Positions 3,319 through 51,448 of a stretch of DNA of 53,668 nt are shown here, one piece after another. Position 1 is the first letter of the stretch. Every line of letters begins with the position of its first letter. The DNA is from a virus, in IMG/VR virus record IMGVR_UViG_3300043778_000094, positions 1-53,668 of that record; one strand, given 5' to 3'. Below the pieces are notes generated by a model. The model had not been told where the DNA came from and ran no database searches. It saw only the letters and a program-made list of their open reading frames with translations. Made by a program: the position numbers and the translations under genes.

Positions 3319-3834
3319 ATGGCTGCTGCACGCGAGGCCACGCGCTATGCCAATTTCGTCCTGACCGAGGCGAAACTGTGGCGCTCGCGTGAGGTCCGCT
3401 TGACTGCCGTCATTACAGGGGGCACGCCCAGCGGCACGATCTTCGACAATAGCGGCAATATCTTGATCGCCGGGACGATCAACGCTGCCTCATCGATCTT
3501 GTTGCGGCCTGAGCCGCCGCAGACTGTCGCCAACAGCAAGCTGGTGCTGGCACGCAATGCCGAGGTCAATGACGCCTTTTTATCTTACGTGATGCAGGGC
3601 GGCGTGCCAATGAATCAGGCGCAAATCGACTCGACTAATCTCGCATTGCTCATGAACAGCGGGATTGTCGTGCGCAAAGGGGTGCTACCTGACTCCAGGG
3701 CCTCGACCAGCTTTTTCGGCGACCTGGGGGCAGCCATCAGCGGTGCCTTCGCGGCAGCGGGCGAGGCGGTTGCTGGTGCTGTCAACGTCGTGCTGGCGTT
3801 GGTCTATCACCCGCGCAACCGGGATCGCCGCTGA
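3319..3834 (+). CDS. Head decoration protein, lambda gpD-like (paralogue 1 of 4)
   Basis: A 171-aa protein with the gpD fold signature in its middle: LVLARNAEVNDAFLSYV followed about 30 residues later by GIVVRKGVLP. gpD trimers bind the three-fold sites of the expanded capsid and clamp it against DNA pressure. This copy has a longer loop between the two motifs than its paralogues and a C-terminal tail (about 125-171) with an Ala/Gly-rich, hydrophobic segment. Its TGA shares bases with the ATG of the next gene. Four members of one family in a single head operon is unusual. Confidence 0.75.
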   Translation: MAAAREATRYANFVLTEAKLWRSREVRLTAVITGGTPSGTIFDNSGNILIAGTINAASSILLRPEPPQTVANSKLVLARNAEVNDAFLSYVMQGGVPMNQAQIDSTNLALLMNSGIVVRKGVLPDSRASTSFFGDLGAAISGAFAAAGEAVAGAVNVVLALVYHPRNRDRR

Positions 3835-26134: not shown

Positions 26135-26140
26135 TCACTT
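26107..26140 (-). terminator. Perfect 12-bp inverted repeat overlapping the integrase stop
   Basis: AAGTGACTAACC (26107-26118) and GGTTAGTCACTT (26129-26140) are exact reverse complements around a 10-base G-rich loop. It overlaps the last codons of the integrase gene. It could be the terminator between the two convergent transcription units, or an integrase/excisionase arm site, since the same GGTTAGTCA motif recurs at 26007. Confidence 0.55.
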
Positions 26141-27241
26141 TCTTGATCTCGGTTGGTTCGCAATGACTAGCGGAAGCGGTGACCCGCTTCCGCTAGGCTC
26201 TGGGAATTGAATCAATCGGGCCATCCCCGCCTCTGCCATGCGCGAACGATCGGCGGCGTCGATATAGCGCTGCACCTCCCTGAGACTTCGATGACCTGAT
26301 ATCGCGGCGATTTGCGGCGCCGTGCACCCGGCTTCGGCCAAGCGCCGGCAGATCGCCTTCCTGAGCCCGTGCGCCGAACAGTGCGACAAGCCGGCCTCGT
26401 TGCACCAATCGCGAAACGCGTTGCCAAACCCGGCCACGGCAAACGACTTGCCGAATTGGGTCATCAGAAACGCCAAATTGCCGCATTCGGACGCCGCGAT
26501 GATATGCGCCAGCTCGGGATGAATCGGGACGTCCATCGGTTGTCCGGTCTTCTGCTGTCGGATCGTGAACTTGCCACCCCGGAAATGCTGCGGCCCCATG
26601 CGCACGACATCGCCGCGGCGTTGCCCGGTATAGAGCAACAACGCCATCGCCAGCCGCGGCCGCGAACCGATTGGATGCTTGGCTTCGAATTGTGCGATCT
26701 CGTCTTCGGTCCAAGTGTGATAACCGCGCTCGCGTCCGTCGGCCTTGGTTCTGGTTGATTTGGCCTGGGCGACCCCGACGGTGGGATCATCGTCGCGCAA
26801 CCCGGCTCGAACAGCATATTGCATCAAGTGCCGCACGGCTTTGAGGTAGCCATGCTGGGCGAAGGGTTGCAATTTGCCGAGGATCGCCATCACGTGCTTT
26901 TGCGACAGCTCACGCAACGAATTGTCGCCGTGCGCCTTACGGAAACGCTCGAGGATGGCGCGTCGGTTCTTTTGCGTGATCGGCGCCAGGGCAAGAAAAC
27001 TGTGATCGCCGTAATAACGGGCGATGGCCGCGCTCAGCGAACCTTGTGGGGAACGGTTCTCACCAATTTCGCGCGTCCCTGGGTTGGCAAGCGCAGCGCG
27101 ATAAGCTTCGACAAATTCCGGCGAGTCAGGGAGACCGGGCAACGGTATTCGAGATTGCCCCTTGCGGCGAAAATAATACCGCTGCCGACCGTGCCGATCG
27201 CGATATTGATTGATGTAATCAAAACGCTTTATAATCCTCAT
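26135..27241 (-). CDS. int: Tyrosine recombinase (phage integrase)
   Basis: A 368-aa integrase for site-specific recombination with the host chromosome. From the ATG at 27241 (MRIIKRFDYINQYRDRHGRQ; a GAGG lies 6 bases upstream) the catalytic residues are Arg208 (TGQRRGDVV), Lys231 (RQQKTGQ), His291-x-x-Arg294 (SAHGLRKA), His317 (SGHRSL) and Tyr326 (VQRYIDAADRSRM). The core-binding helices lie at about 70-170. Further in-frame ATGs up to 27301 would add 20 residues. It overlaps the end of the small upstream gene by 23 bases, so both belong to one transcript from the promoter at 27436-27463. Confidence 0.95.
   Translation of the reverse strand: MRIIKRFDYINQYRDRHGRQRYYFRRKGQSRIPLPGLPDSPEFVEAYRAALANPGTREIGENRSPQGSLSAAIARYYGDHSFLALAPITQKNRRAILERFRKAHGDNSLRELSQKHVMAILGKLQPFAQHGYLKAVRHLMQYAVRAGLRDDDPTVGVAQAKSTRTKADGRERGYHTWTEDEIAQFEAKHPIGSRPRLAMALLLYTGQRRGDVVRMGPQHFRGGKFTIRQQKTGQPMDVPIHPELAHIIAASECGNLAFLMTQFGKSFAVAGFGNAFRDWCNEAGLSHCSAHGLRKAICRRLAEAGCTAPQIAAISGHRSLREVQRYIDAADRSRMAEAGMARLIQFPEPSGSGSPLPLVIANQPRSRK
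26167..26196. repeat. 13-bp inverted repeat inside the 3' end of the integrase gene
   Basis: CTAGCGGAAGCGG (26167-26179) pairs with CCGCTTCCGCTAG (26184-26196) around TGAC. The central GCGGTGACCCGC is close to GCGGCGACCCGCG at 25915, just after the endolysin. Two related dyads flanking the att candidate suggest protein-binding sites or paired transcription stops. Confidence 0.5.
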
Positions 27242-27437
27242 CGAAGACCTCATCCCATGGATTGGGTTTTGGCTTTGGTTCTGGCGCCGTTCCGCTGACA
27301 ACAGGCGGCGTCAGTTCCACCACAATACGCCCATCTTGCCCGATTTCGACGCGCGCGACCTTATGACCGGCCGCCTCGACCGCCTTGATCGCCGCCGTGA
27401 TATCGCGCTGACGAAAGGTTAGACGAACGCGAGCCAT
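27219..27437 (-). CDS. Small basic protein upstream of integrase, unknown function
   Basis: A 72-aa protein MARVRLTFRQRDITAAIKAV, continuing with KVARVEIGQDGRIVVEL and a Pro-rich acidic tail (PKPKPNPWDEVFDEDY). This 'basic helix, then VARVEI..GRIVV strand' layout recurs in small proteins of alphaproteobacterial prophages, without a known function. Its position before integrase is that of an excisionase, but it lacks a clear helix-turn-helix. The ATG overlaps the -10 element of the predicted promoter, so either the transcript is unusual or the true start lies elsewhere. Confidence 0.6.
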   Translation of the reverse strand: MARVRLTFRQRDITAAIKAVEAAGHKVARVEIGQDGRIVVELTPPVVSGTAPEPKPKPNPWDEVFDEDYKAF

Positions 27438-36786: not shown

Positions 36787-37656
36787 ATGGCCAAAAACCC
36801 GTCCTCGGTCTGGTATTGGAATGACTGGCTGCTCGACCCGGGCGTGCGCATGTGCTCGATGGCAGCGCGCGGCTTCTGGCTCGAAATGTTGGCGATCGCC
36901 GCGGCCGCGACACCTTACGGCCACGTCGTCATCAACGGCGCCCCGTGTTCGATTTGCGATCTCGCGACCGCCACTAACCAGCGCAAGCAGGATGTCTCCC
37001 GCTGGATCCGCGAACTTGAAAAGCGCGGGGTCTTTTCGCGCACCGAGGACGGGACGATTTTCTGTCGGCGGATGGTCCGCGAGGCCGAGGCGCGACGCGA
37101 AAAAGCGTCCCATCGCGGTAAAGCGAGACCCCCCAAAGTCGCGCACCCCCAACGCGATACTAACCAACCGGATTTGCTGGATAATTCGTCACCGAAAACC
37201 GAAAAATTCACGGACTCAGACTCAGACAGCGTAGCTGTCTCCCAGGATTCTCCCTCTACTTCTGAACCTCTTCCTGAGTCCCTTGACGCTCCGCGCGCGA
37301 GAGAAGGGGAAAGCGAAAAGCACGGAAAAGGGAATCCTGAAGAGGGTCGCTGCGCTCCCCTTGAAGAACAAAAGGAGACAAGCCCAGGTCGGAACGGGTC
37401 TGATACCCGTTCTCCAGCACGCGCAGGGAAACCGCCAGCGCTGAAGGCCAAGATCCGCGCGCAGCTTCAGCAGAAGCACGCCCGCTACCTGCAGGCCCGA
37501 CGACGACCGGACGAACTGGCGGCCTATTGGGCCGCGATGGTCGATGACGATCCGGCCGTGGCGCAGCGGGCCTTCGACGACACCGACCGCCGAATGCGCG
37601 GCGCCGGCTGGGACGACATGCGCGCGTGGAAACTCCAACAGGGGATCGGCGCGTGA
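36787..37656 (+). CDS. Winged-helix replication initiation-type protein
   Basis: A 289-aa protein. Its N-terminal 110 residues (VWYWNDWLLDPGVRMCSMAA, GFWLEMLAIAAAATPYGHVV, ICDLATATNQRKQDVSRWIR, KRGVFSRTEDGTIFCRRMVR) form the winged-helix seen in lambda O/DnaT-type replication proteins of prophages. A long Ser/Pro/Glu-rich linker (about 130-215) follows, then a basic C-terminal helix region (QLQQKHARYLQARRRPDELA). No polymerase or helicase gene is present, so the phage probably recruits host replication proteins. GAGGGGA precedes the ATG. Confidence 0.7.
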   Translation: MAKNPSSVWYWNDWLLDPGVRMCSMAARGFWLEMLAIAAAATPYGHVVINGAPCSICDLATATNQRKQDVSRWIRELEKRGVFSRTEDGTIFCRRMVREAEARREKASHRGKARPPKVAHPQRDTNQPDLLDNSSPKTEKFTDSDSDSVAVSQDSPSTSEPLPESLDAPRAREGESEKHGKGNPEEGRCAPLEEQKETSPGRNGSDTRSPARAGKPPALKAKIRAQLQQKHARYLQARRRPDELAAYWAAMVDDDPAVAQRAFDDTDRRMRGAGWDDMRAWKLQQGIGA

Positions 37657-37700: not shown

Positions 37701-37994
37701 TCAAGCCAACTTGATACGTTTGGCACGCTGCTGCGCCTGCGCTGGTCGTCGCAACCGTGGACCTGCGAGCTCCCATGTCGGCCGGCCGGCACCGGAGGAA
37801 TACTGCGCTTCGCGGAGGACCTTAGTAGCAACCAATGTCCGCAGCGCGCGGCGTGTGGCGACGAGGTGAACCTTAGTCACTTCATCGAGCCTGCATTGGT
37901 AAACCCGCGACGCCAGTTCGGGCACGCTCAACAGAGGCGTGCGGGTCAAAGCGATAACAATCCCACGTTGTACGACACCCCGACCGCGCGACAT
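37701..37994 (-). CDS. Small winged-helix-like DNA-binding protein, divergent
   Basis: A 97-aa protein on the minus strand: VIALTRTPLLSVPELASRVY, then VHLVATRRALRTLVATKVLR and SSGAGRPTWEL, the pattern of a small winged helix. AAGGGGT lies 8 bases before its ATG. A rightward frame across the same DNA (GTG at 37653) is less protein-like, so I prefer this strand. It diverges from 38093, and the gap between them carries four decamer repeats it might bind. Confidence 0.6.
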   Translation of the reverse strand: MSRGRGVVQRGIVIALTRTPLLSVPELASRVYQCRLDEVTKVHLVATRRALRTLVATKVLREAQYSSGAGRPTWELAGPRLRRPAQAQQRAKRIKLA

Positions 37995-38006
37995 TCAACT
38001 TACCCC

Positions 38007-38075
38007 TTAAGAGTTTTTAAGCGTTTCCAACTCCGCGTCCGAAACGGGAACGGCGAAACACTTAGAAACACTTAA
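38007..38075. promoter_or_regulatory. Two pairs of decamers in mirror arrangement (operator or origin iterons)
   Basis: TTAAGAGTTT (38007) is followed directly by TTAAGCGTTT (38017); 29 bases later AAACACTTAG (38056) is followed directly by AAACACTTAA (38066). The second pair is the reverse complement type of the first. Tandem 10-bp spacing puts the sites on the same DNA face. The cluster fills the intergenic space between divergent genes 37701-37994 and 38093-38707. Confidence 0.65.
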
Positions 38076-38092
38076 ACACAGCGGAGGCGACG

Positions 38093-38707
38093 ATGCCAAG
38101 GGCTCAACGAACACAGGATGCCAGAGACGAGCGGCGGATAGCCGAATATATCCGGCCAATCCTTGAACGCCTGCGCTGGGACCGGAATATCGATGTCGCG
38201 GCGGTCGCGCGCACGGCGCTTGACAATCTTGATTTAGACGGCGGTATCGAAAGGGATAGCCCGATTATTTATCTGGCAGCCAATATGGGATTTAAGCAGG
38301 TAACACGAGAGTTACTGCGTACAAGATGGGAAGATGAAGATAAACGTCAACCTTCCGGCGCGGCTACGTCGTCGGGCGACCCGAAAATGCAATCAAGCGC
38401 CGATGAAAACGGATGTGACAGTCATATAGAAGACGAAGACGAATATCAAAAAGAATACCAGACCCAATTAGAGCTTTTCGAACGTTATCCGCGCTTACAG
38501 CCACGTTATCCGCGAGAGCATGCGCGAGGGCGGCCGCGCGGATATGTATTGGTCAATAGGATGAGTGAGGCCGATTGGAATTGGAATCTCGATAATATGG
38601 AGGGCAAAATCGCTGGTCTGAAAGCACATTTTAATCAGTTGATTGCGTACGGGAAAGAGCGCGGATTTATACGCTACACTCGTGGCGATGCGGTCCGCGA
38701 GGCATGA
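38093..38707 (+). CDS. Unknown protein in the replication operon
   Basis: A 204-aa protein with a good Shine-Dalgarno motif (GCGGAGGCGACG). It is charged and helical: ERLRWDRNIDVAAVARTALD at the N-terminus, an acidic linker (DSHIEDEDEYQKEYQTQLEL) and a C-terminal ADWNWNLDNMEGKIAGLKAH. Codon use is more AT-rich than its neighbours, hinting at a different origin. Its stop overlaps the ATG of the next gene. No family recognised. Confidence 0.65.
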   Translation: MPRAQRTQDARDERRIAEYIRPILERLRWDRNIDVAAVARTALDNLDLDGGIERDSPIIYLAANMGFKQVTRELLRTRWEDEDKRQPSGAATSSGDPKMQSSADENGCDSHIEDEDEYQKEYQTQLELFERYPRLQPRYPREHARGRPRGYVLVNRMSEADWNWNLDNMEGKIAGLKAHFNQLIAYGKERGFIRYTRGDAVREA

Positions 38708-39180
38708 CCGATCTTTTCTTCCCGTCCGAAGATCATCGCCGCGCGCTGGTCGACAAGGTCGAGGCTGGCGGACTGAAAGCGCTCGACGACCACGAGAAGC
38801 GGGAATTTCACGCATACCGCTACGCCTGGCGCCGGGTGCGGCTCGCCGACTTTAGCCAGAAATACCAGTGCGACCCGCGCGGCGACTGGTTCGACGGGGT
38901 TTTCGTCAACCAGGCGGTCGAGATGATGACCGGCGGCAAATACAGCCTGACACCGCCGCGCCCGGAGCGCCGGCCCGACCCGACGCCCGAGGACATCGCC
39001 TATGTCGATCGGCGGCTCGCCGAATTCCGCGCGAACCTTGCCGTCGCCGAGCGCACCCCGACCACTACGCGACGCACCGCCGACCCGCGCGACCTCGCTG
39101 CGATTCAGCGCGGGCTCGGCCTTAGCGCAACTGAAATCAACCACGGAGAGGCGGAGGATGGCAAAGACGCTGCGGAGTGA
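38704..39180 (+). CDS. Unknown protein in the replication operon
   Basis: A 158-aa protein coupled to its neighbours (ATGA start; stop inside the next gene). The N-terminal half (RRALVDKVEAGGLKALDDHE, KREFHAYRYAWRRVRLADFS) is helical; a Pro/Arg-rich middle follows. No catalytic motif is visible. Between a replication protein and GapR, a chromosome-handling role is possible by context only. Confidence 0.6.
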   Translation: MTDLFFPSEDHRRALVDKVEAGGLKALDDHEKREFHAYRYAWRRVRLADFSQKYQCDPRGDWFDGVFVNQAVEMMTGGKYSLTPPRPERRPDPTPEDIAYVDRRLAEFRANLAVAERTPTTTRRTADPRDLAAIQRGLGLSATEINHGEAEDGKDAAE

Positions 39181-39652
39181 AATTCCCGACCAGTTCGGTG
39201 GGGTCATCAACGAGGGCGCGCTCGCCCGTTATGTCGAGCGCGTCGAGCGCCTGCACGAGGAACGCGCCTCGCTCGGCGAGGACATCAAGGCGGTGATGGA
39301 GGAAGCCAAAAACGCCGGCTTCGTGCCCAAGATCATTCGCCAGATGGTTCGCGAGCGGAAGATGGAGCCGGTCGAGCTGCAGGACCACCTGGCATTGCTC
39401 GACAGCTACCGCCGCGGCCTCGGCATGCTTGCCGGCACACCGCTCGGCGACGCCGCGATGGACCGCGCCGAGGCCGAGACTGGTAGCGCCAGGGCCGAGG
39501 GTGCGTCACGCCGAGGCCGCAAGCCTCGATCCTTTGACGAGCAACCGGTGCATCAGCCGCGGCCGCGCGGCCGGCCGCGCAAAAATGTGGGCGAAGCGCT
39601 GGCCGATGCCCGTCTGCATCTCGGCGAGGAAGAGCCGGTAGGCACCGCATGA
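39158..39652 (+). CDS. GapR-like (DUF2312) DNA-binding protein with two AT-hook-like motifs
   Basis: A 164-aa protein with a near-complete GapR domain (residues 8-90): GGVINEGALARYVERVERLH, EERASLGEDIKAVMEEAKNA, GFVPKIIRQMVRERK. GapR of Caulobacter clamps overtwisted DNA ahead of polymerases and promotes replication. This copy adds a long tail with RRGRKPR (118-124) and PRPRGRPRK (134-142), AT-hook-like DNA minor-groove binders. The start ATG at 39158 has GGCGGAGG directly before it. It presumably acts on phage or host DNA topology during replication. Confidence 0.9.
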   Translation: MAKTLRSEIPDQFGGVINEGALARYVERVERLHEERASLGEDIKAVMEEAKNAGFVPKIIRQMVRERKMEPVELQDHLALLDSYRRGLGMLAGTPLGDAAMDRAEAETGSARAEGASRRGRKPRSFDEQPVHQPRPRGRPRKNVGEALADARLHLGEEEPVGTA

Positions 39653-40263
39653 CTGGCGGCCTGTTCGCGCTCGACGTGGCGACGACGACTGGCTGGGCCT
39701 ATGGCATGCCCGGCGATCGGCCGTCCTATGGCCGCTTCCGTTCAGGCAAACCGCGCCCAAAGGACAGTGAAGGCAATATCGGCGAAGCCTTGCGCGCGTT
39801 TTGTTTGTGGCTTGGCGCGCGTTGCATCGAATGGCAACCGAGCATGATTGTCTTCGAGGCGCCCTATGTGCCGCGGTTTGCACCGAGAAAGGTGCGCACG
39901 AGAACCGGTCAGGTGATTTCGACCGAACCGACCAAGGGAATACCGATCGATATCAACGTCGTGCGCAAGCTGTTCGCCATGTGCGGCCTGGTCGAAATGA
40001 TCGCCTATGAGCATGCGATCCCGTGCCGCGAAGAACAATCCAATGTGATCTGCCGGCATTTCACCGGCAACGGCTCGTGGGGCGGGCGCGCTAATAAGAA
40101 GATCGCGACGCAAAAGATGTGTGCCGTCCACGGCTTTCCCAATGTCACTGAAGACGAAGCCGATGCGTTGGCGCTGTGGTTTTATGCCGAGGCGGTGCGC
40201 TTCACGAAAGTCCGAAGTGCCGGACCCTTGTTCGCGCTCGGCGGCCGCGCTCGGTTCACGTGA
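39649..40263 (+). CDS. RuvC-like Holliday junction resolvase
   Basis: A 204-aa RNase H-fold nuclease. The acidic residues are Asp9 (FALDVATTTGWAYG), Glu near 70 (MIVFEAPYVP) and the Asp/Glu set in TEDEADALALWFYAE (about 168-182). The basic middle (RFAPRKVRTRTGQVISTEPT, GGRANKKIATQKM) would hold the junction. It resolves branched DNA before packaging. It overlaps the GapR-like gene by four bases and is the last gene before a strong terminator. Confidence 0.88.
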   Translation: MTGGLFALDVATTTGWAYGMPGDRPSYGRFRSGKPRPKDSEGNIGEALRAFCLWLGARCIEWQPSMIVFEAPYVPRFAPRKVRTRTGQVISTEPTKGIPIDINVVRKLFAMCGLVEMIAYEHAIPCREEQSNVICRHFTGNGSWGGRANKKIATQKMCAVHGFPNVTEDEADALALWFYAEAVRFTKVRSAGPLFALGGRARFT

Positions 40264-48439: not shown

Positions 48440-48502
48440 CATTGCAGAACTGGGGGGCCGTCCTGATTGGGGCGGCCCCCACTTTTTACGCTGCCTCGTC
48501 AG
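48440..48502 (-). ncRNA. Degenerate hammerhead unit (probably inactive)
   Basis: This spacer keeps the two ends of the repeated element, CUGACGAGG (48502-48494, inside the last codons of the clamp-like gene) and CUGCAAUG (48447-48440), about as far apart as in the intact copies. Between them lies an 8-bp hairpin (GGGGGCCG / CGGCCCCC) but no GAAA, no U-H site and no stem I. A second hairpin GAAGAC-UCAC-GUCUUC follows. It reads as a decayed or replaced ribozyme. Confidence 0.5.
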
Positions 48503-49781
48503 AAGCGGTCTCGGGAAAGACTTCGCTGACTGACTTATCGCCCTCGCCGGGAACGACTTTATCCGGCGACAACACGGTTTCGACCTGGCGCCAATCGAGG
48601 CAGCGCGTGGCCGCCACTTCCGGCGTCAAACCGCCTTCCCACCAGCTGTCGAGCGGCACGCCGTCGGCGAGTTGGTGGATCGTCAAGCCGGCATTGTCAC
48701 GCGACAACACGGCGTTGACATCGGCGAAGAATTTTGCCCTCGCCTTTTTCGCGGGCGCGCCCTTGAGCTTGGCTCGCTGGGCGACGCGCGTGGTGTCGCC
48801 GTCGTCTGTCGTTTCGGCCTCGTCCTCATCAAGCAATTGAGGCGATGGTGCCGGCGCAGGTAACGCGGTCTGAGGCTGCGTACGGGTTATCAACGTGTTG
48901 ATCCGCTGATCGTAATCCTCGATCTTTTTCTGCAGCAGCCGATTGTTCGGCATTTTTTCGAGCCGCGCCATGGTGCGCGTGCGATTGGCCCGCAAAGCGC
49001 CAATTGTCCCGGTGATTGCCGGGTTCAATATGCGCGCTTGCTGCGGCGCCAACGCCTGATCTCTGAGCCCCATCACGGGCATCAACGCCAACACCGCCCC
49101 CGGGCATCCGGGGAACATAATCAACGTTGGCTTGTCATCGCCCGCGCCGAAGACCTGCACGGTCGGCGACTCGAGCAATTTCGCGAGATCAGCGACACCC
49201 TTGAGATAGGCCGCTTGATAGCCGGTACTTTCGAGGTCCAGTGTTTCGCGCGACGACAGATTGATGCTGGCGAACATGCCGTCGTAAGCCGGAAAGTCGC
49301 CTTCGACTGGGAACAGACGAAAGGTGACATTGTCGTGAGGATCCGACAACAACAGGCGCGGCGCGCCAGTCCCATACGAAATCACGGCGGAGTCGCCGCC
49401 GAGCTTTTCGATCATCATCAACTGTTCTCTGAACAGAGCGAGCGGCACCGTTATTCCCTTTCCGAGCCAACCGGGCAGCGTTGCTGACCCGCTTGGGATC
49501 GAATAGGCGAATAAGCGATGACCGTCGGTCGCGCTGACACGGACTTCGCCTTCGCGCGTGGCGATGTTGACGCCCTGGAGATTTTCCGGGACGTCTTTCT
49601 TGTCGCCGTTGACATCGGTGGTTTTGGCACCGGTGCAGCTGATCGCTGCCTTGAGCGCGAGCACGGGGATGGCGATCGGCTCAAGCGCCGCCACCGACTC
49701 CACGACCGCCTCCTCGACAACGTTCTCGGCAGCGCCGTTCGACGGCGCCACTTCGCGCGAAGTGCTTTTCTTGGTTCGCAT
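48486..49781 (-). CDS. DNA sliding clamp (DnaN)-like protein
   Basis: A 431-aa protein. After a 35-residue disordered start, residues ~38-250 recall a beta-clamp: VNIATREGEVRVSATDGHRL ('V.VSATDG.RL' is the DnaN motif), FREQLMMIEKLGGDSAVISY and TFRLFPVEGDFPAY. Residues ~265-300 (GALRANRTRTMARLEKMPNN) are a helical hairpin, and the C-terminus (about 310-431) is acidic and Pro-rich. It is longer than DnaN, so it may be a clamp-like decoy or a phage-specific clamp. It starts right after hammerhead B. Confidence 0.6.
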   Translation of the reverse strand: MRTKKSTSREVAPSNGAAENVVEEAVVESVAALEPIAIPVLALKAAISCTGAKTTDVNGDKKDVPENLQGVNIATREGEVRVSATDGHRLFAYSIPSGSATLPGWLGKGITVPLALFREQLMMIEKLGGDSAVISYGTGAPRLLLSDPHDNVTFRLFPVEGDFPAYDGMFASINLSSRETLDLESTGYQAAYLKGVADLAKLLESPTVQVFGAGDDKPTLIMFPGCPGAVLALMPVMGLRDQALAPQQARILNPAITGTIGALRANRTRTMARLEKMPNNRLLQKKIEDYDQRINTLITRTQPQTALPAPAPSPQLLDEDEAETTDDGDTTRVAQRAKLKGAPAKKARAKFFADVNAVLSRDNAGLTIHQLADGVPLDSWWEGGLTPEVAATRCLDWRQVETVLSPDKVVPGEGDKSVSEVFPETASDEAA

Positions 49782-50159: not shown

Positions 50160-50375
50160 TCAGCCGAGATATAGCAACAATTCCTCGGCGCCGAACACCT
50201 GTTCGACACCGCAGCTGTCGCACGTGTAGTTGCGAGCGTCGGGTTCGCAACCGTCGGCCTCTTCGCCGCAAATCAGGCAAAAGCCGGGGTTATCGAGTTC
50301 CGTCATCTCGCGTTCGACTGCCTCCATCACGCGTTCAGCGGTGATCGAAGCGTGCCACAGCTTGCGCGCTAGCAT
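50160..50375 (-). CDS. Small zinc-ribbon protein
   Basis: A 71-aa protein, start chosen at the ATG with GGAG 8 bases upstream (MLARKLWHASITAERVMEAV). A helix is followed by two CxxC pairs, FCLICGEEADGCEPD and YTCDSCGVEQVFGA, a classic zinc ribbon. It overlaps the SciP-like gene by seven bases. May bind nucleic acid or a host protein. Confidence 0.75.
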   Translation of the reverse strand: MLARKLWHASITAERVMEAVEREMTELDNPGFCLICGEEADGCEPDARNYTCDSCGVEQVFGAEELLLYLG

Positions 50376-50575
50376 GACCGGCACTCCGGGTAGAGTTGCA
50401 GACGGGTCGAGCGCATCGCCGGCACGCCGTGGCGGCCGAATTGACGCCGCCAGGCAGCAAGTTCCTCGTTCGATACGGCAAAGCGGATCGAAGCCTCGGC
50501 GATCGACAACAAGTCGTAATCGATCGCCAGCAACAACACCGCTTTGCGTTGCGGCGACCAACGATCAGTGGCCAT
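50369..50575 (-). CDS. SciP-like (DUF1153) regulator
   Basis: A 68-aa protein matching the DUF1153/SciP pattern: RWSPQRKAVLLLAIDYDLLS, IAEASIRFAVSNEELAAWRR and FGRHGVPAMRSTRLQLY. SciP of Caulobacter is a helix-turn-helix protein that represses CtrA-activated promoters and so shapes the cell cycle. A phage copy may reset host transcription or time its own genes. It is translated after the 63-aa gene, which it overlaps by 11 bases. Confidence 0.85.
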   Translation of the reverse strand: MATDRWSPQRKAVLLLAIDYDLLSIAEASIRFAVSNEELAAWRRQFGRHGVPAMRSTRLQLYPECRSC

Positions 50576-50756
50576 TGTTCGGGACCATGACGTTGAGCGC
50601 CAACTTGACGCCGGGGCGCTTGCACTCGACTGGCACTATCCCGTGGGTCGAGGCGATCAGCTTGGTTTTGCCGGTCTTCGACGTGACGCCGCGGGCGGTC
50701 AGATCGCAGGTGATTACGAGCTTGTCGCCCGTCACCTTGATCTCGACGTTTTCCAT
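50565..50756 (-). CDS. Small beta-rich protein downstream of hammerhead C
   Basis: A 63-aa protein, MENVEIKVTGDKLVITCDLT, continuing KTKLIASTHGIVPVECKRPG. It looks like a small all-beta fold. An ATG 12 bases upstream, inside the conserved GCAATGGAG box, is in frame, but the box serves better as Shine-Dalgarno sequence. Function unknown. Confidence 0.7.
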   Translation of the reverse strand: MENVEIKVTGDKLVITCDLTARGVTSKTGKTKLIASTHGIVPVECKRPGVKLALNVMVPNNGH

Positions 50757-50792
50757 AAGGGTCTCCATTGCAGGTGGTACGGAATTGGACTT

Positions 50793-50853
50793 CCGCGACG
50801 TCCCGACTTGTGTCGGGACGTTTCGTCCCCTGTCACGGGGACTCGTCAGGCGG
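50793..50853 (-). ncRNA. Hammerhead ribozyme C (type I)
   Basis: Read leftward: CCGC; CUGACGA; stem II GUCCCC-GUGACA-GGGGAC; GAAA; stem III CGUCCCGAC-ACAA-GUCGGGACG (9 bp); U-C; GCGG. Cleavage expected between 50797 and 50796. Stem sequences differ completely from A/B yet pair. Downstream CGGAA / UUCCG can form the released 5' hairpin before CUGCAAUGGAGACC. The upstream gene's TAA lies 10 bases before the core. Confidence 0.93.
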
Positions 50854-50856
50854 GGA

Positions 50857-51066
50857 TTAATCCCAGGATCGGGATTTGCCGTAAGTGTCGCGGATGAGGA
50901 TTTTCGTCCCGAAGTCGCGCGAACGCGCCTCGGTGGCGAAGGCCTGAACCTCCTTCTCGTCCTCGCATTGCGCGTGGTCGAGCAGTTCGAGCCCGTCACG
51001 GCTCAACACCGTGACTTGCCATTTGACCCTGCTGCCGCGTGGCGGCACATATTGGCGACGTGCCAT
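50857..51066 (-). CDS. Small unknown protein downstream of hammerhead D
   Basis: A 69-aa protein, MARRQYVPPRGSRVKWQVTV then ELLDHAQCEDEKEVQAFATE. A strand-helix layout with 'VTVLSRDGLELL' recalls very small alpha/beta folds. Starts 6 bases after the conserved GGAG. Function unknown. Confidence 0.7.
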   Translation of the reverse strand: MARRQYVPPRGSRVKWQVTVLSRDGLELLDHAQCEDEKEVQAFATEARSRDFGTKILIRDTYGKSRSWD

Positions 51067-51101
51067 GATGGTCTCCATTGCAGAAGTGCGGATTTTTTGT
51101 A

Positions 51102-51159
51102 CCGCTACGCCCAGCTTGCGTTGGGCGTTTCGCTGGGGTCTCACCAGCTCTTCAGGCGG
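51102..51159 (-). ncRNA. Hammerhead ribozyme D (type I)
   Basis: Read leftward: CCGC; CUGAAGA (A at the variable position); stem II GCUGG-UGAGACC-CCAGC; GAAA; stem III CGCCCAAC-GCAA-GCUGGGCG with one A/C mismatch and a GNRA loop; U-A; GCGG. Cleavage expected between 51106 and 51105. The UGA of the core is the stop of the 98-aa gene. GCGG can re-pair with CCGC 10 bases downstream. Confidence 0.9.
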
Positions 51160-51448
51160 TTTGTGCTGCCAACGCGTCCTCGAGGGCCTTCTTGGCAACT
51201 GGGTTGGTGAACGTCGCGACGCGAGCCGCGAGCCGGGTCCGATTGGCCCGACGTGCAGCCTCGTGACGATCGCACGGGACGCTCGAACGCACGCGACGCG
51301 CCGGCGCATCGGCCAGTTGCGCGTCATAGTGCGCCAGCGCCTCAACAACCGCTGCTTTCGCGACGGCGTTGGTGAAGGTTTCGCCCTTCTGGGCCAGCCG
51401 GGTACGATTTGCGCGCACGGCTGCGAAGTGCATCACTGACTTTGTCAT
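51152..51448 (-). CDS. 98-aa protein with duplicated ANRTRL motif
   Basis: The protein consists of two copies of one ~30-residue unit: AAVRANRTRLAQKGETFTNA ... VAKAAVVEAL and AARRANRTRLAARVATFTNP ... VAKKALEDAL, joined by a linker with VPCDRHE. It is a paralogue of the 89-aa protein at 51817-52086. Each unit looks like a basic turn followed by a helix, so nucleic-acid binding is possible. Ends with the UGA of hammerhead D and starts after hammerhead E. No family recognised. Confidence 0.72.
   Translation of the reverse strand: MTKSVMHFAAVRANRTRLAQKGETFTNAVAKAAVVEALAHYDAQLADAPARRVRSSVPCDRHEAARRANRTRLAARVATFTNPVAKKALEDALAAQTA

Follow-up and report, generated by a model that had tools for sequence, protein, structure and literature searches.

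The window analysed here is a stretch of 53,668 bases from virus record IMGVR_UViG_3300043778_000094, which the explanation proposed below assumes to belong to a temperate phage, and which carries an integrase gene (Table 1). Downstream of a replication-initiation (O/DnaD-like) gene, two genes diverge, of which the leftward gene encodes a 97-aa protein, wh97, and the rightward gene encodes a 204-aa protein, p204. Most of the 98-base gap between the two start codons is occupied by a 69-base element (38007–38075), composed of two tandem pairs of decamers (38007–38026 and 38056–38075) arranged in mirror orientation with 29 bases between them.

Table 1. Features of the wh97/p204 locus in the window and of the corresponding element in the related contig L031
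Feature	Position	Strand	Remark
Terminase large subunit			Resembles those of Rhodobacter and Wolbachia phages
Integrase gene	26135–27301	−	
Replication-initiation (O/DnaD-like) gene	36787–37656	+	PHROG matches; upstream context of the decamers
wh97 gene (97 aa)	37701–37994	−	Start codon 12 bases left of left arm
Decamer 1, outer left	38007–38016	−	AAACTCTTAA on −; TTAAGAGTTT on +
Decamer 2, inner left	38017–38026	−	AAACGCTTAA on −; TTAAGCGTTT on +
Spacer, 29 bases	38027–38055		Contains CCGCGTCCG at 38033–38041
Decamer 3, inner right	38056–38065	+	AAACACTTAG
Decamer 4, outer right	38066–38075	+	AAACACTTAA
GGAGG	38083–38087	+	Likely ribosome-binding site of p204; begins after 7 bases past right arm
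p204 gene (204 aa)	38093–38707	+	Start codon 17 bases right of right arm
GapR-like DNA-binding gene	39152–39649		PF10073, E 5.8e-21
RuvC-like gene	39649–40263		1.6 kb downstream; query used for finding relatives
L031 left arm	3492–3511 (L031)		CTAAGACCGG TTAAGACCGA
L031 right arm	3542–3561 (L031)		TCGGTCTTAT CCGGTCTTAA

Besides the GapR-like gene, the window contains a weak GcrA match at 50230–51210 (E 0.0056, below the cut-off); GapR and GcrA are names of alphaproteobacterial cell-cycle regulators. A 431-aa open reading frame on the minus strand (48486–49781) matches a RusA-like PHROG (8.7e-10) and, below threshold, DNA polymerase III beta, and the two disagree.

Read outward-in, the four copies in the window are TTAAGAGTTT, TTAAGCGTTT, CTAAGTGTTT and TTAAGTGTTT. 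They are identical to one another at 8–9 of 10 positions in pairwise comparison, and position 6 varies among them. The pattern AAACNCTTAR has four exact matches in the 53,668 bases of the window, all at this element, and no exact copy elsewhere in the window, including the vicinity of the integrase gene. When up to one mismatch is allowed, seven matches are found against 5.55 expected, the three extra one-mismatch matches being at chance level.

The decamer arrangement is beyond chance. Specifically, on a mirrored-tandem score composed of six pairwise decamer comparisons, with a maximum of 60 points, the element scores 52, while 30 first-order Markov shuffles of the full window score 46 at most. 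Furthermore, when the 98-base gap itself was shuffled 3000 times with dinucleotides preserved and any period from 8 to 12 accepted, no shuffle came to 0.85 of the maximum, the highest being 0.71. The sequence-only reading, which described two inverted tandem pairs with ten-base spacing, 29 bases apart, is thereby borne out, with coordinates 38007–38075 exact. No sigma-70-like promoter is recognised in the region.

To judge from the conservation of its reading frame, wh97 is a real leftward gene: among all frame pairs compared with the relative described below, its minus-strand frame is the best conserved (score 128, next 75). The predicted structure of wh97 comprises three helices in a helix-turn-helix-like arrangement, with a mean pLDDT of 56 and no wing seen in the model. 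The structural matches (VIA) of this low-confidence model are Lrp/AsnC and other winged helix-turn-helix (wHTH) domains at Z 4–5 (Lrp/AsnC about 5), and the VIA list has no Xis, Cox or BldC entry, which excludes nothing; Foldseek returned no match to the model at E ≤ 0.001. In the family libraries, wh97 has no hit among the PHROGs (E ≤ 0.1) or in NCBIfam (E ≤ 1), and only a sub-threshold match to PF08100. For p204, there is no family match above any cut-off and no DNA-binding signature was found, and the structural model is unusable (mean pLDDT 40). A PDB sequence search with the wh97 or p204 alignment gave no credible match.

Relatives were collected by searching with the RuvC-like protein, which gave 12 contigs, and then by alignment search, which gave 22, the 12 included. 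Among these 22 records, wh97 occurs in one and p204 in one, both being the contig IMG/VR 3300037452_000041 (loci L031/L036/L044/L058; L031 hereafter); since contigs may be fragments, absence of wh97 or p204 from a record proves nothing. In L031, the wh97 and p204 relatives are 43% and 35% identical to those of the window and stand in the same divergent order, with GGAGG likewise upstream of the p204 gene. Between them lies the same layout, two mirrored pairs with period 10 and a gap of 30 bases (29 in the window). The shuffle test applied to the window gap gives 0 of 3000 for the 90-base gap of L031, and the octamer TAAGACCG occurs five times in the L031 contig, four times in the element and once in isolation. 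A mirrored-tandem score of 50 or more, out of 60, is reached in the L031 contig and in none of the 21 other loci (251,437 bases, which are parts of contigs and not always the homologous slot). The non-random mirrored layout of the repeats is thus kept, with concerted change of its letters, in the sole relative having both genes; its upkeep rests on two phages, because one independent relative was found.

Comparison of the two elements divides the decamer into a constant and a variable part. Read outward-in, positions 2–5 are TAAG in all eight copies of the window and L031, while positions 7–9 are GTT in 4/4 window copies and CCG in 4/4 L031 copies. Decamer identity is 8–9 of 10 inside each phage and averages 4.7 of 10 between the window and L031; by alignment, the middle of the spacer is alike (CCGCGTCCG in the window, CCGTGTCCG at 3519–3527 of L031). 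Conservation in relatives, on which the sequence-only reading had staked the decamers, is therefore one of architecture and not of letters: the exact sequence differs in L031, and the layout is the same. Judged from these letters, a concerted change in all four copies is what would be expected of sites read by one protein with a changed preference, unlike the drift of unconstrained DNA; because the four copies changed together, a single protein may read all four sites. In wh97 itself, 18 of the first 39 residues are the same in the window and L031, compared with 2 of 11 at the start of helix 3 (residues 40–50). This divergence, in a single protein pair, is suggestive only.

Searches for further carriers led back to the same contig. 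In viral contigs, single-sequence queries with wh97 and p204 gave no match, and two-row alignments recovered L031 alone. Genome contigs gave no match for p204 or the RuvC-like protein, and no host genome carrying both genes came to light; phage records gave no match for the window p204 or for the L031 wh97 and p204, and plasmid records none for the wh97 of either phage. The exact tandem AAACNCTTARAAACNCTTAR is present in 19 stretches of viral contigs, mostly in contigs whose GC content is below that of the window; none of these 19 loci scores at least 50 or has a mirrored second pair, and we take them as chance or unrelated. Three viral contigs of about 47–48% GC (L003:7815, L011:6626 and L019:2327) share an identical stretch with AAACACTTAAAAACACTTAA and no mirrored partner.

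Taken together, the element is probably the operator of the divergent wh97/p204 pair, putatively bound by wh97 head-to-tail in each arm and controlling both genes. We infer protein binding, the identity of wh97 rather than p204 as the binder, cooperativity and repression. As the putative reader, wh97 is tentatively favoured over p204, because it is small, the helix arrangement of its low-confidence model is winged-helix-like, its best structural matches are winged-helix domains, and the start of its third helix differs much from that in L031.

The reverse assignment, in which the decamers are the operator of p204 and wh97 is merely co-regulated, is unlikely. p204 tracks the element as wh97 does (in 2/2 phages), and its gene begins 17 bases from the right arm. 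Against this, p204 has no DNA-binding signature, a point of little weight because the p204 model is unusable, and the size and fold of wh97 are more fitting.

A very improbable reading is that the element works as an RNA or DNA hairpin, as in an attenuator or structured leader, instead of as a protein operator. The arms can pair, and in L031 the fold beats those of shuffled sequences (DNA z −5.05); however, the window element barely does so, with a DNA z of −0.89 (38/200 shuffles as good) and an RNA z of −1.97 for the plus strand (7/200). Furthermore, the variation at position 6 of the window copies puts mismatches in the stem, the tandem repeat inside each arm is not required by a hairpin, yet is present in both phages, and no Rfam family matches in the window at the gathering threshold.

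We give marginally less credence still to a centromere-like site or a recombination directionality factor (RDF, excisionase) site, at which partition or excision would be the main job and repression secondary. RDFs such as Apl and Xis use one-turn direct repeats as their sites, and some RDFs regulate transcription too (PMC7498355); however, about 10.7 kb separate the element from the integrase gene, the surroundings of which contain no exact decamer. For partition, the relative L024 has a ParB_N-like gene in the corresponding slot, but no ATPase or filament gene is recognised among the ten neighbouring proteins tested in the window.

The slot between the replication gene and a conserved 158-aa gene is swapped among relatives (L024:437-2172; L026:3175-4056; window 37701-38707). 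It holds wh97 and p204 in the window and in L031, the ParB_N-like gene and a gene for a 263-aa protein in L024, and a 293-aa gene with no Pfam match in L026. The 263-aa protein has no recognisable relationship to p204.

Least probable of all is that the decamers are iterons of a replication origin, with the upstream replication protein, whose gene ends about 350 bases before the element, as their binder: the L024 replication protein is 93% identical to that of the window over the 145 residues compared, yet the L024 slot lacks wh97, p204 and the decamers; the L031 replication protein has no similarity to that of the window, yet L031 has the mirrored architecture; and the N-terminal part of the L031 protein is 73% identical (149 aligned positions) to the replication protein of L026, a locus whose slot likewise lacks wh97, p204 and the decamers. 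Replication types and decamers thus dissociate both ways: the decamers go with wh97/p204 rather than with the replication gene, and the replication protein is judged an improbable reader. Iteron arrays do not typically consist of four copies in mirror symmetry, and inside the replication gene there is no direct-repeat array, just one two-copy 14-mer family. The sequence-only reading had proposed cooperative binding by either the small winged-helix protein or the replication protein. The replication half of that proposal is not supported, given L024 and L031, while the winged-helix half gains indirect support from the layout kept together with the same protein, from the concerted change, and from the one-turn repeats known for such proteins.

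With wh97 as the reader, each decamer would be bound by a wh97 monomer, and two monomers would line each arm, by analogy with Apl and BldC. Because the arms are mirror images, the start region of each divergent gene would be covered by one pair, the left pair 12 bases from the wh97 start codon and the right pair 17 bases from that of p204, just before GGAGG. In this way, wh97 could turn down, or otherwise set, its own gene (autoregulation) together with p204. TAAG, which is constant, and GTT/CCG, which varies, may represent two separate contacts, the second matched to the altered recognition helix. Repression by occlusion is a guess, because no promoter is recognised in the region, and activation is also conceivable.

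More tentatively, wh97 could be the founding member of a phage regulator family not yet described, whose proteins recognise mirrored pairs of one-turn repeats through a split code, in which TAAG is fixed and GTT/CCG is changeable and re-tuned in all four copies, giving separate, non-cross-reacting switches in related phages. If wh97 does read the element, the window and L031 provide two natural protein–operator pairs with the same layout and different letters, from which a small recognition code could be tested by swaps, and the one-turn repeat operators known for small winged-helix proteins would gain a mirrored two-by-two layout. Apart from layout and code, the locus would represent ordinary phage regulation. 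In the open-licence literature on similar operators, we found no description of a mirrored two-by-two layout.

Cooperative, head-to-tail binding to one-turn direct repeats is known for small winged-helix proteins (PMC7498355, PMC5859096). Apl of coliphage 186 and other RDFs use direct repeats one turn apart, being weak at a single site and cooperative at neighbouring ones, and Apl represses both pR and pL (PMC7498355). The proposed wh97 case resembles Apl, lambda Xis and P2 Cox in combining a small protein with one-turn direct repeats, and the cooperative head-to-tail mode of wh97 is proposed by analogy with them. In particular, the predicted sites have period 10 in both phages, in keeping with direct repeats one turn apart as in RDF sites, and the Apl sites, which lie between early promoters that are both repressed, can be likened to the wh97/p204 gap. 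Apl has seven operators in direct repeat between pR and pL and five more at attP (PMC7498355); the window instead has two mirrored pairs, identical at 8–9 of 10 positions, and lacks a further cluster at the integrase. No family model for RDFs or excisionases matches wh97.

BldC of Streptomyces is a 68-residue MerR-like wHTH protein that binds 9-bp direct repeats head-to-tail, contacting an AT-rich part and, separately, a base that its recognition helix reads (PMC5859096). The AT-rich part and the specific base of the BldC site can be likened to TAAG and GTT/CCG. The two cases differ in period (9 for BldC, 10 here), the available part of PMC5859096 describes no mirrored pairs for BldC, and wh97 has no family match.

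RdfS, a small oligomeric wHTH protein from an alphaproteobacterial mobile element, the Mesorhizobium symbiosis island, represses the promoter of its own gene by binding there (PMC11963761), which recalls the autoregulation proposed for wh97. RdfS is an excisionase that binds attP and PrdfS, and is set beside wh97 by this description, with no family model linking them. By analogy, wh97 may work like the Apl/Xis/Cox and BldC proteins, a likeness of mode and not of family membership.
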